Shown here one piece after another: positions 2,350-31,968 of a DNA stretch of 64,000 nt. A program made the translations under genes and the position numbers. Numbering within the stretch: position 1 is the stretch's first letter; each line of letters begins with the position of its first letter. Source of the stretch: Maricaulis maris. Lineage in GTDB: Bacteria; Pseudomonadota; Alphaproteobacteria; Caulobacterales; Maricaulaceae. Location: contig NZ_AP027270.1 in the NCBI RefSeq assembly GCF_036322705.1, positions 2,915,501 to 2,979,500 on the forward strand, read 5' to 3'. The notes under the pieces are model-generated. The model saw only the letters and a program-made list of their open reading frames with translations. It ran no database searches and had not been told where the DNA came from.

Positions 2350-2997
2350 GTGGCCCAGACCCAGAACACGTCAGAGCAGAGCTCACGCCTTCTTATTGAT
2401 GCCGGCCCGATCGGCGTCTGGATCGTGGTCTACAATGTCGCGCGGATGTTTGCGGGTGATCAGGCCATCTATATCGGAACCGGCGCCTACATGCTCGCCG
2501 CAACGGTGGCGCTGGTCCTGTCGATCCGGATCGAGAAGCGCATCCCGCCGATGCTGGTCTTCACGACGATCATCGTGCTCGCCTTCGGCGCACTGGGGAT
2601 CTTTCTTCAGGATCCGATCTTCATCTACGCCAAGCCCACGATCATCAATCTCTTCCTGTCCTATCTGATCCTGGTCAGCCTCGCCCTTGGCCAGAATGTC
2701 TGGAAGGTCTTCTTCAGCCATATCTTCGAGCTGACGGACCGCGCCTGGACCTTGCTGGCCATTCGCTGGGCCCTGTGGTTCCAGTTCCTGGCCTTTCTCA
2801 ACGAGGTGATGTGGCGTCACATCACCGACAGCGTCGTGCCGGTGTCGGCGCGCTGGTTTGCGGAGCTGGAACTGAGCGAAGCCTTCTGGTCCAACGCCAA
2901 GCTCGGCGTGATGGTCTTGTCGGTTCTCTTCGCCGCTTCGCAAATGCCGCTTGTCCTGAAAAACCAGCCCAAGTCGCCGGACCCAGCGGACAGCTGA
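2350..2997 (+). CDS. ispZ: Inner membrane septation protein A (IspZ/YciB)
   Basis: Polytopic inner-membrane protein of 215 residues with about six hydrophobic segments. Family features include LLIDAGPIGVWIVVYNVARM near the N terminus, the central KPTIINLFLSYLIL, and WTLLAIRWALWFQFLAFLNE with the following conserved W. IspZ/YciB proteins are implicated in normal division and envelope synthesis, but their biochemical role is unsettled. A longer open frame extends upstream through the preceding gene. I chose GTG at 2350 because AGGAGG (2339-2344) sits five bases ahead of it and because it gives the usual family length. It follows the EamA gene by 20 bases and ends the ftsY operon. Confidence 0.9.
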   Translation: MAQTQNTSEQSSRLLIDAGPIGVWIVVYNVARMFAGDQAIYIGTGAYMLAATVALVLSIRIEKRIPPMLVFTTIIVLAFGALGIFLQDPIFIYAKPTIINLFLSYLILVSLALGQNVWKVFFSHIFELTDRAWTLLAIRWALWFQFLAFLNEVMWRHITDSVVPVSARWFAELELSEAFWSNAKLGVMVLSVLFAASQMPLVLKNQPKSPDPADS

Positions 2998-3082
2998 TCC
3001 CGGCATTCCGTGCTCGGACATTTGTCATTCTCGCGTTATAAATCCGCCCTAGGATGAATTCCCGAATGGGACGGGGGGCGTC

Positions 3083-3688
3083 ATGCCGCACGACAAGCAC
3101 GACACCAAGAACTTCCATCTGACGGAATCGCCCGGTCACCTCCTGCACAGGGCACAGCAGTTCGCGGCCGAGCGCTTCACCAAGGCGATGGCCGGCGCCA
3201 AGCTGACGCAGCGTCAGTTCGCCGTCCTGCATGCGACAGCCCAGGAAGAGGGGCTGACCCAGACCCAGCTCGTCAAGACAACCGGGATCGACCGTTCCAC
3301 GCTCGCCGAGCTGGTCGCCCGCATGGTCAAGAACGGGCTTCTGGAGCGCGAGAAGCTGGCCGACGACGCCCGCGCCAATGCGGTCAAGCTGACCGAGAGC
3401 GGTCGCGCCCTGCACGAAACCGCAACCCGCGGCGCCATGGATGCCGACAAGGCCATCCTGTCGGCCTTGCCGAAAAACAAACGCGCCAGCTTCATCGAAA
3501 CGCTCCGGCGCATCGCCGAGACGCTGGAAAAAGGTGAGGAAGCCGCCAAACAGGCCAAGCTGGTTGCCAAGGAGAAGAAGAAGAAGGCCAAGAAGAAGGC
3601 GAAGGACAAAGCCAAGGCGAAGGCCAAGAAGGGCGAGAAAAAGTCCAAGAAAGCCGGCAAGGACACCCGGGAAAACACGGCGGCCTAG
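3083..3688 (+). CDS. MarR-family regulator with a lysine/alanine-rich C-terminal tail
   Basis: Residues ~15-145 form a winged-helix MarR domain: AKLTQRQFAVLHATAQ (helix 2), LTQTQLVKTTGIDRSTLAELVARM (recognition helix) and NGLLEREKLADDARANAVKLTESG (the wing with its DxR). After about residue 150 the protein becomes an extremely basic low-complexity tail of roughly 50 residues, almost entirely Lys and Ala with some Asp, Glu and Gly, resembling the C-terminal domain of histone H1 or bacterial HU/AlgR3-like extensions. Usual MarR proteins end at ~145-150 residues. The tail probably adds sequence-independent DNA binding (inference). The stop overlaps the opposing ccmG stop in CTAG. Target genes and ligand are unknown. 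Confidence 0.85.
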   Translation: MPHDKHDTKNFHLTESPGHLLHRAQQFAAERFTKAMAGAKLTQRQFAVLHATAQEEGLTQTQLVKTTGIDRSTLAELVARMVKNGLLEREKLADDARANAVKLTESGRALHETATRGAMDADKAILSALPKNKRASFIETLRRIAETLEKGEEAAKQAKLVAKEKKKKAKKKAKDKAKAKAKKGEKKSKKAGKDTRENTAA

Positions 3689-4191
3689 CGGCGGTCGGCC
3701 CGCTCCAGCGCGGGATAGATGGTCTGACGCAAGACATCCACTGTCAGCGGACCCGGCCAGCGAGCCAGGATCTGCCCGTCGCTGACCACCAGCGTCTCCG
3801 GTGCCCCACTGATCCCCAGCGCCATCACGGACTGGTTGTCGACATCCTGCATGACCGCGACGAACGGGTCACCGAGCTCGTCAAGAAACTGCTCCGCATC
3901 CTCCGGCGTGTCGCGCCAGTTCAGGCCGTAGATCGCGATGCCTTCGCTGCGCAAGGCCATCAAGGTGGAATGCTCGGCATGACAGGGGGCACACCAGCTG
4001 CCCCAGACATTCAGCAGCCATGGACCCTCGATGGAGCCGGGATCGAAGCGATCGCGGTTTTCCAGTTCGGCCATGGTCAGGACAGGCAGCGGCTCGCGGA
4101 CTTCCACTGGCCGGTCTCCCGCGAAACGCACGGCCAACACGCCAGCCAGCCCGATAACGACCAGCCAGGCGGCAAGCCGGAGCCACCTCAT
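3685..4191 (-). CDS. ccmG: CcmG/DsbE thiol-disulfide oxidoreductase
   Basis: Membrane-anchored periplasmic thioredoxin-like protein of 168 residues that reduces apocytochrome c haem-binding cysteines for System I maturation. One N-terminal membrane anchor (residues ~5-22) is followed by the thioredoxin fold with active site WGSWCAPC (cysteines 67 and 70). The cis-proline region is ISGAPETLVV, and the acidic surroundings (GLNWRDTPEDAEQFL) are typical of CcmG. The preceding ccmD ends on the first base of this ATG, so the genes are translationally coupled. It is last in the ccm cluster. Its TAG stop is shared with the convergent MarR gene through CTAG. Confidence 0.94.
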   Translation of the reverse strand: MRWLRLAAWLVVIGLAGVLAVRFAGDRPVEVREPLPVLTMAELENRDRFDPGSIEGPWLLNVWGSWCAPCHAEHSTLMALRSEGIAIYGLNWRDTPEDAEQFLDELGDPFVAVMQDVDNQSVMALGISGAPETLVVSDGQILARWPGPLTVDVLRQTIYPALERADRR

Positions 4192-4346
4192 CAGGCCTCG
4201 TCCGTTTCAAGACGCCGCAGAGCCTCGCGAGCGGCGCGGCGCTCGAGCAGGGCATGGACGACCAGGGCAACCAGAACAGCCGCCGACACCGCCCAGGTTG
4301 GCCAGACATAGGCGGCATAGCCACCCATCGCGAAGAACTCGGTCAT
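4191..4346 (-). CDS. ccmD: CcmD haem exporter accessory protein
   Basis: A 51-residue protein beginning MTEFFAMGGYAAYVWPTWAV, followed by one membrane helix (VSAAVLVALVVHAL) and a basic cytoplasmic tail (LERRAAREALRRLE). The FxxMGGYAxYVWPAY-like start is the hallmark of CcmD, which helps release holo-CcmE from CcmABC. The ATG overlaps the ccmC stop in ATGA (4343-4346), and its TGA overlaps the first base of the ccmG ATG. It is read directly from the minus strand between ccmC and ccmG, and size and position both match the family. Confidence 0.93.
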   Translation of the reverse strand: MTEFFAMGGYAAYVWPTWAVSAAVLVALVVHALLERRAAREALRRLETDEA

Positions 4347-5092
4347 GAGACGGCATCCTCATTGCGGCGCGCCGCCTGTTCCCGCTGGCGCTGAAGCGTC
4401 CGGGCACGCCGTCGCAGCGCCTGGCTGCGCAAGCGGTACAGCACCAGCCAGCCGGCGAGGAAGGTGTAGGCCAGCGCCATGATGGCCAGCGGCCACAACT
4501 GGCTGGGGTGAATGGTCGGCCCGTCGAAGCGGATCACCGAGGCCGGCTGATGCAGGCTCGACCACCAGTCGACAGAAAATTTCACGATGACCAGATTGAT
4601 GATGCCGGCCATGCCGAGGATGGCCGCGGTCCGGGCCGCCTGCTGGGCATCCTCGATCGCCGCGCGCAGCGCCATATAGCCGAGATAGACCAGCAGCAGG
4701 ACGAGAACGGAGGTCATCCGCGCGTCCCATTCCCACCAGGTCCCCCACATCGGCTTGCCCCAGAGCGAACCGGTGAACAAGGCCAGCACGGTAAAGGCGG
4801 CGCCGATCGGCGCGATGACCTCGGCCGCGGTATCGGCCAGGGCATGCCGCCACACGAAATAGACAAAGCTCGCCACCGCCAGCGCCGCATACAGCGCCAT
4901 CGCCATGTATGCCGCAGGCACGTGGACATACATGATCCGGACCGTCTCACCCTGCTGGTAGTCCGGCGGAGACCCGAAGAAGGCCAGCCAAATTCCGACA
5001 GCCAGCAAGCCGAGCGTCAGCACACCAAAGATCGGGATCAAGGTGCGGGCCAGCTGGTCGAAGCGCTGCGGATTTGAAAAATAAGACAGCAT
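4343..5092 (-). CDS. ccmC: Haem transporter/handling protein CcmC
   Basis: Six-helix inner-membrane protein of 249 residues that presents haem to CcmE. The tryptophan-rich periplasmic signature WGTWWEWD lies at residues 116-123. The two conserved external histidines are in MYVHVP (H57) and SSLHQPAS (H181). Family members load haem onto CcmE together with CcmA, CcmB and CcmD. All four partners except CcmE are in this cluster; CcmE, CcmF and CcmH are not in the window. An ATGA overlap joins it to ccmD. The cupin gene upstream ends 55 bases before the start. Confidence 0.96.
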   Translation of the reverse strand: MLSYFSNPQRFDQLARTLIPIFGVLTLGLLAVGIWLAFFGSPPDYQQGETVRIMYVHVPAAYMAMALYAALAVASFVYFVWRHALADTAAEVIAPIGAAFTVLALFTGSLWGKPMWGTWWEWDARMTSVLVLLLVYLGYMALRAAIEDAQQAARTAAILGMAGIINLVIVKFSVDWWSSLHQPASVIRFDGPTIHPSQLWPLAIMALAYTFLAGWLVLYRLRSQALRRRARTLQRQREQAARRNEDAVS

Positions 5093-5147: not shown

Positions 5148-5837
5148 CTATTGCGGCAAATGCCCGGTCTTGACCCAGATCAGGCAGCCTTCGGTCGAAA
5201 ACGGCGTGTGCTGGCTCATGTGGGGGCTGCGGAGCCAGCTCCCGGCCGGATAGCGGCCATGCTCGTCCTCGAACACGCCTTCGATCACGAAGATCTCCTC
5301 ACCGCCCCAGTGGCGATGCCGGTTGAACCGGGTCCCCGGCTGCCAGCGGACCAGCGCCACATGCTCGGTTCCAGCTTCATGGAGCGGAAGCACCGATAGA
5401 CCGTCCACAAGGCCGGGCCGGAACGGGGCGGATCTCGTGTCGATGACTTTGCTGACCAGGTCCATCGGATCGAACTGCCGCAACTTGACCAGGATGGTGC
5501 AGCCCGGATCGGTATGCGGCTGGTGGCGGCTACCAGGCGGATTGCGGACATAGCTGCCGGCGGGATAGTCCCCGCTCTCATCCGAGAAGACCCCCTCCAG
5601 AACCAGAAACTCCTCGCCGAGCGGATGGTCGTGCGGGTCGAAGCGCGAGTTCGGGGCGAAACGCACGATGGTGGTGGCCCGGGCGACTTCACCGCCGATC
5701 CGATCCAGCATCATCCGCTCGACTCCGCTCGCGGGCGACCTCACCCACTCATAGTCTTCCGGGCGCACAACGGCGCGTTCGCTGAAATCGGCATTCAGGC
5801 GGATCTCGTTCGCAGGGTCAGTGGTTTGCAGCGCCAT
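5148..5837 (-). CDS. Double-cupin protein, ChrR-like
   Basis: A 229-residue soluble protein with two tandem cupin folds. The first has FDPHDHPLGEEFLVLEGVF with YPAGSYVRNPPGSRHQPHT. The second has FNRHRHWGGEEIFVIEGVF with YPAGSWLRSPHMSQHTP. Each half carries the H-x-H...E...H metal ligands, so two metal sites are expected. The spacing resembles the C-terminal cupin of ChrR anti-sigma factors, but the ChrR zinc-binding N-terminal domain is absent, so an anti-sigma role is not supported. I start at the ATG giving MALQTTDPANE; an upstream open extension starts at a non-cupin stretch. The gene lies between ccmB and ccmC on the same strand, with 74- and 55-base gaps, so it may be co-transcribed with cytochrome c maturation genes. 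Function is unknown. Confidence 0.82.
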   Translation of the reverse strand: MALQTTDPANEIRLNADFSERAVVRPEDYEWVRSPASGVERMMLDRIGGEVARATTIVRFAPNSRFDPHDHPLGEEFLVLEGVFSDESGDYPAGSYVRNPPGSRHQPHTDPGCTILVKLRQFDPMDLVSKVIDTRSAPFRPGLVDGLSVLPLHEAGTEHVALVRWQPGTRFNRHRHWGGEEIFVIEGVFEDEHGRYPAGSWLRSPHMSQHTPFSTEGCLIWVKTGHLPQ

Positions 5838-5911
5838 GGCTGGGTCTCTTCTGGTAACGGCAGTCCGGGCCCGGAGATAAGGCCGTGTCACGCGTGTTCA
5901 AGAAGGCAGGG

Positions 5912-6580
5912 TCACCCAAGCCGGCTGCGCAGGGCAGCAGCAATGCCAAACGGGGCCAGCGCCGTAGTTGCCAGTGAAACGGCCAGCGTCAGCAGAAGAT
6001 TGGCCAGCGCGCGCTCGTCACCCTCGAAGGCAGAACGCCCGGCGCCGGCGGCGAAGATCAGGACAGGCACCATCATCGGCGTCGCGATGAGCGCAATCAG
6101 AAGACCGCTGCGCCGAATGCCCGCCGCTAGGGCGCCCGCGAAACCGGCTATCAGGGACAGCGCCGGGATCGCGGCCAACAGCGCCAGAGCGCCGACCAGT
6201 GCGGGCAGGATTGTGACGCCGTACATCAGCGCTCCCAACAATCCGATCACGGGTAACGGCCAAAGGGTAGCAGCCGCTTGCCCCATCACCTTGGCCAGAA
6301 CCAGCCAGGACGGTGTCACGCCACTGAGCAGGTAAAGCTCGGCGGTGCCGTCACCATGATCATCGCCGAACAGACGATCAGCGGATTGCAACACCGAGAG
6401 CAGGGCCGCAAAGCCCATGATCCCCGGACCAACTGCCGCCAGAAGATCAGCCGCCGGCCCGATGGCGAGGGGGGCGAGGGTGATGGCTGCAAGGAAGAAG
6501 GCCGCCGGCCCGGCGGCGCCACCGCCGCCGGCCCAGGCCAGACGCGCTTCGCGGGCAAAAATGGCAGACAGCGCACTCAT
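5912..6580 (-). CDS. ccmB: Haem exporter permease CcmB
   Basis: A 222-residue inner-membrane protein with about six hydrophobic segments. The family start is ALSAIFAREARLAWAGGG, followed by PAAFFLAAITLAPLAIGP. The conserved cytoplasmic loop is LFGDDHGDGTAELYLLSG, the CcmB counterpart of the usual RLFxDDxxDGxLE motif. CcmB is the membrane partner of the CcmA ATPase. The ATG overlaps the ccmA stop (ATGA at 6577-6580), so the two are coupled. Downstream comes the cupin gene and not ccmC directly, which is an unusual interruption. Confidence 0.94.
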   Translation of the reverse strand: MSALSAIFAREARLAWAGGGGAAGPAAFFLAAITLAPLAIGPAADLLAAVGPGIMGFAALLSVLQSADRLFGDDHGDGTAELYLLSGVTPSWLVLAKVMGQAAATLWPLPVIGLLGALMYGVTILPALVGALALLAAIPALSLIAGFAGALAAGIRRSGLLIALIATPMMVPVLIFAAGAGRSAFEGDERALANLLLTLAVSLATTALAPFGIAAALRSRLG

Positions 6581-7230
6581 CGGTGGGCCCCCAGATCGAT
6601 CCGTCTGGCGTTGGGCCAGTCGAGGGTCTGGTGCGTCGCCGCTATAACACTGCCGCCGCGGGCGCGGTGCCAGGAAACGAGGTCGGCCAGCCGCGCCCGA
6701 CCGCCGCCATCAAGCGGACCGGCGGGCTCGTCCAGCAGCCAGATCGGCCGGTTGGACAAGGCAACCCGGACCAGGGCCGTCCGTCTTTGCTGGCCCCGGG
6801 AGAGGCGGCCCGCGGGTCGGTCGATCAGGCTTTCGATGGCCATCGCCCGCATCAGCGGCAGGATTGGCTGGCGGCCCTGCCCGGCCATGTCGGACCAGAA
6901 CCGCAAGGCCTGACGAGGCGTTTCACCCGGCTTGAGCCCGTCCGCATGCCCGAGCCAGCCGAGCGTGTCGGCGGCCGCGACGGCTGGCGCCTGGTCACCG
7001 ATGCGGATGTTTCCGGCGTCGGGCCGGATAAAACCGGCGATTGCTCGCATCAGCGTTGTCTTGCCGGTTCCGTTCGGACCACTCATCAGCACCGCGTCGC
7101 CCGGCACCAGATCGAGGCTGAAATCACGCACCAGCACCAGACCGCCGCGCGACAGCGTCAGCCCGGCAACAGCGAGCCGTTCCGGTGCAAAAGCGGGCAT
7201 GGCGGGGAATTTTGCGGCTTCAGTCGGCAT
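6577..7230 (-). CDS. ccmA: Haem exporter ATPase CcmA
   Basis: ABC ATPase of System I cytochrome c maturation; ATP hydrolysis releases holo-CcmE from CcmC. Motifs are Walker [11 protein letters not shown]-loop region [21 protein letters not shown], signature LSRGQQRR, Walker B WLLDEP, and the switch histidine in AATHQ. The Q-loop DGLKP segment and the degenerate signature are typical of CcmA. Length is 217 residues from the ATG at 7230. A second ATG at 7200 (MPAFAPERL) would give 207 and is equally possible, since neither has a good Shine-Dalgarno sequence. It is first in the ccm cluster and divergent from acnA, with about 160 bases between. Confidence 0.94.
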
Positions 7231-31443: not shown

Positions 31444-31968
31444 TCATCCGCCGACGAAGCGGGCGATCCGCGTTCCCATGTTCATCAGCTTGATCAAGGT
31501 GCCCTGGGGCAGCTTGCGGATCTGGGCGTACCAGCCGGTCAGGTTTGTGACGAAACCCTCCATGCGCCGCAGCCGTTCGATGGCCAGTTTCGGCGTGTCC
31601 GGATCGGCTTCAGCAGCGTCCGCGCATTCCCGCAGGATATCGATCATCGGATCGATCTCGCGCTGCTTTCTGGCCTCGGCGATTGCCATCAACATGTCCC
31701 ACGGCTCATGGGTGGCGGTGAAATGATCGCGTCGATCACCGAGCACATGCTCCCGCTTCACCAGTCCCAGTGTTTGCAGCTCCTTGAGCGAATTGGAGAC
31801 GTTGGATCGGGCGATCTGAAGCACGTCGGTGATCTCTTCGGCATGCAGGGGCCCTTCGGCGAGGTAGAGCAGGGCGTGGATCTGGGCAATGGACCGGTTC
31901 ACCCCCCAGCGTGCCCCCATTTCTCCCCAATGGACGACGAAGCGTTGCATGGGCGCTGAGAGTTTCAT
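31444..31968 (-). CDS. GbsR/MarR-type transcriptional regulator
   Basis: A 174-residue winged-helix regulator: QIHALLYLAEGPLHAEEI, then ITDVLQIARSNVSNSLKELQTLGLVKREHVLGDRRDHF, the helix-turn-helix and wing of the GbsR subgroup. GbsR members usually sense choline-type osmolytes or control membrane/cell-wall genes; the ligand here is unknown. A perfect CTGAA-T-TTCAG palindrome lies just upstream and may be its operator. It is divergent from the receiver gene. Confidence 0.82.
   Translation of the reverse strand: MKLSAPMQRFVVHWGEMGARWGVNRSIAQIHALLYLAEGPLHAEEITDVLQIARSNVSNSLKELQTLGLVKREHVLGDRRDHFTATHEPWDMLMAIAEARKQREIDPMIDILRECADAAEADPDTPKLAIERLRRMEGFVTNLTGWYAQIRKLPQGTLIKLMNMGTRIARFVGG

Follow-up and report, generated by a model that had tools for sequence, protein, structure and literature searches.

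The locus examined here raises the question of what a long lysine-rich tail does at the end of a MarR-family regulator, how old such a tail is and whether it is maintained by selection. The gene lies in a window (the whole stretch of Maricaulis maris DNA that was analysed, 64,000 nucleotides in length) and is followed by a convergent gene with which it shares its last bases. The features of the locus are collected in Table 1.

Table 1. Coordinates of the features discussed in the text. Positions refer to the window, except in the last two rows, where they refer to loci of two other genomes.
Feature	Position	Strand	Basis
MarR-family regulator gene, 201 aa plus stop	3083..3688	+	ORF translation, Pfam; orthologue starts and ends agree
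MarR_2 match, residues 41-98	3203..3376	+	Pfam
Predicted recognition helix, residues 71-83	3293..3331	+	Predicted model; column counts
Basic tail, residues 151-201, net +15	3533..3685	+	Composition
Constrained tail core, residues 163-183, pN/pS 0.099 (19 Maricaulis sequences)	3569..3631	+	
ispZ-like septation gene, just upstream	2386..2997	+	Pfam match to stop; true start not settled
dsbE/ccmG-like gene, convergent	3685..4191	-	3' ends overlap by 4 bases
ccmC-like gene	4343..5092	-	Profile match and neighbourhood comparison
Palindrome-like box TCCGTGCTCGGA, candidate operator	3007..3018	.	Kept in family
Giant-tail locus L196 (G581), tail of ~855 residues	1971-4997		
Giant-tail locus L197 (G679), tail of at least 386 residues	1941-3561		

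The 201-residue product is assigned to the MarR family by the Pfam profile MarR_2 (E 2.5e-14; score 53.6 bits, cut-off 27) as well as by the MarR profile (43.6 bits against a cut-off of 24.6), and its nearest named relatives are found in Maricaulis MAGs at 90% and 81% identity. The structure was modelled as a monomer with AlphaFold from an input alignment of 34 orthologues. The predicted fold is that of a MarR protein, with a winged helix and end helices, and is matched to MarR structures by Foldseek; block-mean pLDDT values range from 72 to 94 across residues 11-140. The wing is predicted to end around residue 103 and the last helix is drawn as one piece from residue 131 to 193, with pLDDT values of about 71-73 at residues 151-180, 62 at 181-190 and 49 at 191-200. 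The original prediction had the winged-helix domain ending near residue 150; this position is located inside the last helix, near the usual limit of MarR domain coverage. Column counts over 116 rows indicate that residues 67-75 (TGIDRSTLA) are almost invariant, and tail-less homologues retain most of the recognition-helix residues as well. A second MarR-like match is present in the window at 31729-31890 on the reverse strand, in a 181-codon open frame devoid of a basic tail.

The last 51 residues (151-201) comprise 21 lysines, one arginine, 12 alanines and seven acidic residues, giving a net charge of +15, compared with +5 for the folded part; the pI of the complete protein is 10.1. Finding 21 lysines in 51 residues has a binomial probability of about 6e-18, taking as background the 3.4% lysine observed in 2,336 residues encoded by seven neighbouring genes. 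The protein therefore carries a long, basic, Lys/Ala-rich C-terminal tail, as do HupB and AlgP, and the description of the gene as a MarR regulator bearing an H1-like tail is confirmed; the statement that this tail is nearly all Lys and Ala was somewhat strong, as these two residues account for 33 of 51 positions. The PAKK and KAAK motifs are both absent from the tail encoded in the Maricaulis window and occur in tails of other families.

Comparison with other MarR proteins bears out the expectation that members of this family usually end around residue 150. A basic tail was found in none of the 14 other MarR-family matches examined out of 20 in the host genome (all 12 above the cut-off and two of the eight below it), and the last 45 residues of 13 of these controls have net charges of -7 to +2. 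When the tail itself was used as a query against the host genome, its own gene was the sole match in a loose first pass that may hide other low-complexity tails. Among 138 distinct homologues, a basic tail is present in 113 of 119 syntenic rows versus one of 19 non-syntenic rows, a row being called syntenic when at least one known neighbour is present, with rows that are related and flanks that differ in length, so that a Fisher test exaggerates the significance of this association. Nine further syntenic rows include seven with a basic tail and two without. The non-syntenic L222 carries 58 extra residues with a net charge of +11 that are not of the lysine-rich kind. A quick tree of the 138 domains implies six changes between basic tail and none, but its many weak forks and meeting long branches do not allow tail gains and losses to be read off.

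The distribution of the tail was then considered by family, f1 being the host's own family, f2 to f5 four more families of the order, and higher numbers families read at the class level. A tail was called basic at 18 residues or more and net +6. All 19 Maricaulis genomes carry one, the weakest case (L033) having 33 residues, nine lysines and a net charge of +6, and the tail-less close relatives that would have contradicted the original prediction were accordingly not encountered in this genus. In f1, some match is found in 133 of 137 genomes at E 0.001 and a clear orthologue in 53 of 137 (E 4.9e-27 or better, counted manually). Many genomes of genera g2-g5, g7, g9, g12, g16 and others of f1 are without a clear orthologue, unlike most sampled genomes in the order's other families. 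The distinct f1 orthologues are basic-tailed in 51 of 52 cases, the exception being L067 (42% identity), as are all 42 distinct proteins of f2-f5. This amounts to 93 of 94 distinct orthologues in the five families, so that the original idea of a tail conserved in the order is supported, and its conservation extends beyond the order. Seven of seven further f2-f5 proteins, lower- or other-scoring, are basic-tailed as well; the f2-f5 set thus consists of 42 distinct, mostly high-scoring proteins and these seven, taken from several hundred genomes matched. Among the lower-scoring f2 members are AAKKAPAKK-type tails 94 and 98 residues long. The median tail charge is +14, and this charge is kept while the letters differ between families.

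At E 1e-12, matches were obtained in 330 of 398 genomes of the order sample and in 93 of 385 genomes of the class sample. Class-level tails were read from 29 new loci and 20 more taken from the matches: lysine-rich tails occur in f8, f14, f95, f120, f125 and f127, short Arg-rich ones in f9, and the f97, f130, f170, f181 and f184 proteins examined are syntenic and tail-less, as is L067 in f1. In the phylum sample, 21 of 398 genomes matched at E 1e-18 and all 21 belong to the same class, the make-up of the sample beyond that class not being given in the part listed. In all tail counts, the identical pairs L036/L037 and L112/L149 were each counted once. L180, L186 and L068 (G107) were excluded for lack of a usable match, and L009-L013 were left out as repeat genomes or entries of the first tail table alone. 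The tails of L141 and L143 end at the locus ends in the tail table and fuller reads were made separately.

The longest tails were encountered in genus g63 of f8, in draft assemblies. One frame runs for 1,008 codons between stops and consists of a MarR part of about 145 residues and a tail of about 855 residues made of KRKTAKRK-type repeats, followed by a stop. In a second g63 genome the frame extends over at least 540 codons up to the contig end, with at least 386 basic tail residues, while the tail of a third is limited to 45 residues.

Selection on the tail was estimated from the 19 Maricaulis sequences. The pN/pS ratio is 0.173 for the MarR domain (residues 13-150); the tail taken as a whole gives 0.355 and its distal end (184-201) 0.66. 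The tail core (Table 1) is therefore more constrained than the MarR domain within the genus. These ratios, together with the tails of the orthologues, rule out both a spurious reading frame and a peculiarity of a single genome. As related bacteria keep such tails at the same chromosomal place, the sequence comparisons indicate that the lysine-rich tail is probably a long-standing functional part of the protein.

The locus itself is old. It is preceded by ispZ/ftsY or by a Nudix gene in divergent orientation, and followed by convergent dsbE/ccmC. In Maricaulis the MarR gene starts 85 bases after ispZ. Neighbours were counted as totals per family within flanks of about 1.2-2 kb, which bound what is visible, the 53 loci of f1 including both L036 and L037. 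DsbE is located downstream on the opposite strand in 52/53 loci of f1, 8/17 of f3, 4/4 of f14, 3/3 of f120, 3/3 of f125 and 0/13 of f5, and CcmC is downstream in 50/53 loci of f1. On the other side, IspZ is found in f1 (29/53), f3 (14/17), f5 (12/13) and f8 (3/3), and FtsY in f3 (17/17), f5 (10/13), f9 (4/4) and f1 (5/53). A Nudix gene running away from the MarR gene, at a distance of 94-860 bases among the rows listed, is present upstream in f1 (24/53), f2 (6/6), f3 (1/17), f4 (6/7), f5 (9/13) and f14 (4/4), and in 3/3 loci each of f8, f97 and f125. No Nudix gene was seen within these flanks at the Maricaulis loci, and the three matches in the host genome are partial (the best with 41% identity over 58 residues), so that the divergent gene seems to be absent from this genome. 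The Nudix protein of the relatives reached no NCBIfam cut-off by which a subfamily could be named. Because the targets of MarR regulators usually lie in the divergent neighbour, the Nudix gene would be the likely target in these relatives. The view that no obvious target shares an operon with the gene stands for Maricaulis, but in many relatives the MarR gene has its upstream region in common with the Nudix gene. Further along the window, a two-cupin-like ORF (5148-5891, reverse strand) was recognised by eye between ccmC and the ccmB- and ccmA-like genes, themselves read by eye at 5912-6580 and 6577-7230.

A candidate operator was found upstream of the gene. The Maricaulis sequences keep an upstream block containing TCCGTGCTCGGACA and GTTATAAATCCG, and TCCGTNNTCGGA is found there in 18 of 19 genomes. 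The looser pattern TCCGTN4GGA is present in 18/19 Maricaulis and 25/33 other members of the family, versus about 0.4/52 expected, and the palindrome occurs in one of 68 upstream stretches outside the host family. The host genome contains the strict form TCCGTRYTCGGA twice as an exact match, once at the promoter of the MarR gene itself and once within a coding region. Across the 19 Maricaulis genomes it has 46 sites, versus 14 for the reversed control pattern, and 17 of the 46 coincide by their coordinates with the promoter of the MarR gene. The 30 loci returned include 12 of this own-promoter group and four of another group within coding sequence, in a stretch that we take from its translation to be alanyl-tRNA synthetase. 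Allowing two mismatches, the 64-kb window contains 22 sites versus 21.9 in shuffles. No clear motif common to all families emerged: the top dyad, TCCG-N4-CGGA, is found in 6 of 43 genera, where shuffled sequences gave a maximum averaging 3.9 and never above 5. The low frequency of the palindrome outside the family and the lack of a clear shared motif do not support autoregulation of the whole orthologue group. Should the palindrome be the operator, few genes would seem to belong to the specific regulon. A many-site regulon acting through TCCGTRYTCGGA is unsupported, and the suggestion of a global regulator finds no support in the two host sites, at the own promoter and in the alanyl-tRNA synthetase-like stretch. 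The original interpretation of this gene as a whole is partly supported.

MarR proteins are dimers that bind palindromic operators and often regulate their own genes. The explanation that we find somewhat more convincing than not is that the Maricaulis protein belongs to an old alphaproteobacterial group of MarR orthologues and forms a self-regulating dimer whose tails add non-specific affinity for DNA. The usual form of the group would be a MarR dimer with one basic H1-like tail per subunit. The folded part would recognise a palindromic operator, most probably the one in front of its own gene, and act as a repressor; in the relatives, the operator would be placed between the MarR gene and the divergent Nudix gene. 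The two tails may provide sequence-independent contacts that prolong the time spent on DNA, thereby helping the dimer to find or hold its site. The association of tail and synteny, the constraint on the tail core, the kept charge, the invariant helix residues, the palindrome at the own promoter and the precedents of PgFur and HupB, as far as the excerpts cited below describe them, are all consistent with such a tailed dimer. The tail-less syntenic orthologues (6/119 and 2/9), the sharing of helix residues with tail-less homologues, the rarity of the palindrome outside the family and the promoter binding of tail-less PgFur in vitro argue against it. From these data we infer that the tail contacts DNA, that the protein represses and regulates its own gene, that the palindrome is its operator and that the tails improve affinity or search.

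The same evidence was weighed for other functions. The tail could bind all over the chromosome, with bridging or compaction and a dimer acting at many places, which would make the protein a nucleoid-associated protein or global regulator. The H1-like composition, the AAKKAPAKK-type tails of f5 and f2, the tail of about 855 residues in one f8 genome and the breadth of the matches in the order would suit this role, but it is rather unlikely in view of the two exact host sites, of the 17 of 46 Maricaulis sites that lie at the own promoter and of the position, within coding sequence, of the other recurring group among the 30 loci. A related proposal is that of a chromatin-like MarR lineage, in which the H1-like tail of an ancestral local repressor would allow it to coat or bridge the nucleoid as well, repeat expansion having adjusted the tail to lengths of about 20 to about 855 residues. 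We consider this proposal rather unlikely; if true, it would join specific regulation and DNA packing in one protein. The tail may also bind another polyanion, such as RNA or polyphosphate, or serve localisation rather than DNA search. The H1-like tail of AlgP, involved in the spacing of polyphosphate granules according to the excerpt of PMC9239181, offers a model for this function. The protein nevertheless has a domain for binding DNA whose recognition helix hardly varies, which makes DNA the nearest partner, and such a role appears quite improbable. A structural extension of the last helix, favouring dimer stability or solubility, or a weakly selected compositional drift, would explain the single modelled helix 131-193, the weak constraint on the distal tail and the existence of tail-less syntenic orthologues. 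It is hard to reconcile with a tail core more constrained than the domain, with the basic charge of 93/94 distinct orthologues of the order and with a tail helix predicted at just about 50-73 pLDDT, and is regarded as very improbable.

The preferred tailed dimer can be compared with several known systems. The best solved relatives are BpsR and PcaV by fold and PcaV by sequence. The Maricaulis protein has the MarR fold in common with the PcaV, BpsR and HosA group (PDB 4fht, 6pco, 6pcp and 8aga) and, in the alignment, shares recognition-helix residues with PcaV; the aligned chains of this group stop with the domain and have no lysine-rich tail in the alignments, unlike the Maricaulis protein. 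Four BpsR residues hold 6-hydroxynicotinic acid (Tyr15, His23, Arg26 and His32, in the excerpt of PMC6837509). Their counterparts are F11, H19, H22 and A28, of which H19 alone is kept, and a BpsR-type ligand binding was rejected on the residues named in that excerpt; f5 and class-level proteins additionally keep the BpsR-type Arg. The best NCBIfam match across the domain, the Saro_0803 family (NF053777), scored 64.4 bits, far under its cut-off of 200, and membership was likewise rejected.

Closer parallels to the tail are found outside the MarR family. PgFur of Porphyromonas gingivalis resembles the Maricaulis protein in that a winged-helix regulator ends in a lysine-rich C terminus. According to the excerpt of PMC6613475, removal of this C terminus abolishes function in vivo and the tail-less protein still binds its promoter in vitro, which implies that specific binding does not necessarily depend on such a tail. 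PgFur differs by its family (Fur) and by its much shorter tail, 13 residues being removed in the mutant described in that excerpt. By analogy, the Maricaulis protein may work in a similar manner. The H1-like tail of HupB, the mycobacterial HU, is needed for nucleoid binding in the excerpt of PMC5676037. Its PAKK and KAAK motifs also appear in f5 and class-level MarR tails, but HupB has the HU fold and binds non-specifically, and the Maricaulis tail contains neither motif. The KPAA-type H1-like tails of AlgP and PhaF from Pseudomonas bind DNA, and AlgP associates with polyphosphate granules whose spacing needs its tail, as presented in the excerpt of PMC9239181. These tails resemble two f2 tails (L220 and L221) in composition; AlgP and PhaF differ in having no MarR domain and in being tied to polyphosphate and PHA granules. 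Among the matches listed from openly licensed PMC papers, no lysine-tailed MarR protein was found, and the present protein represents a conserved MarR-family variant that did not appear among these matches. In the excerpts considered, bacterial H1-like tails are discussed for HU-type, granule-associated and Fur-type proteins. The present locus adds a MarR regulator, whose tail has long been kept in many alphaproteobacterial families at one old locus. As tail-less, short, medium and very long versions exist in nature, the role of a basic tail in search, residence or bridging becomes directly testable.
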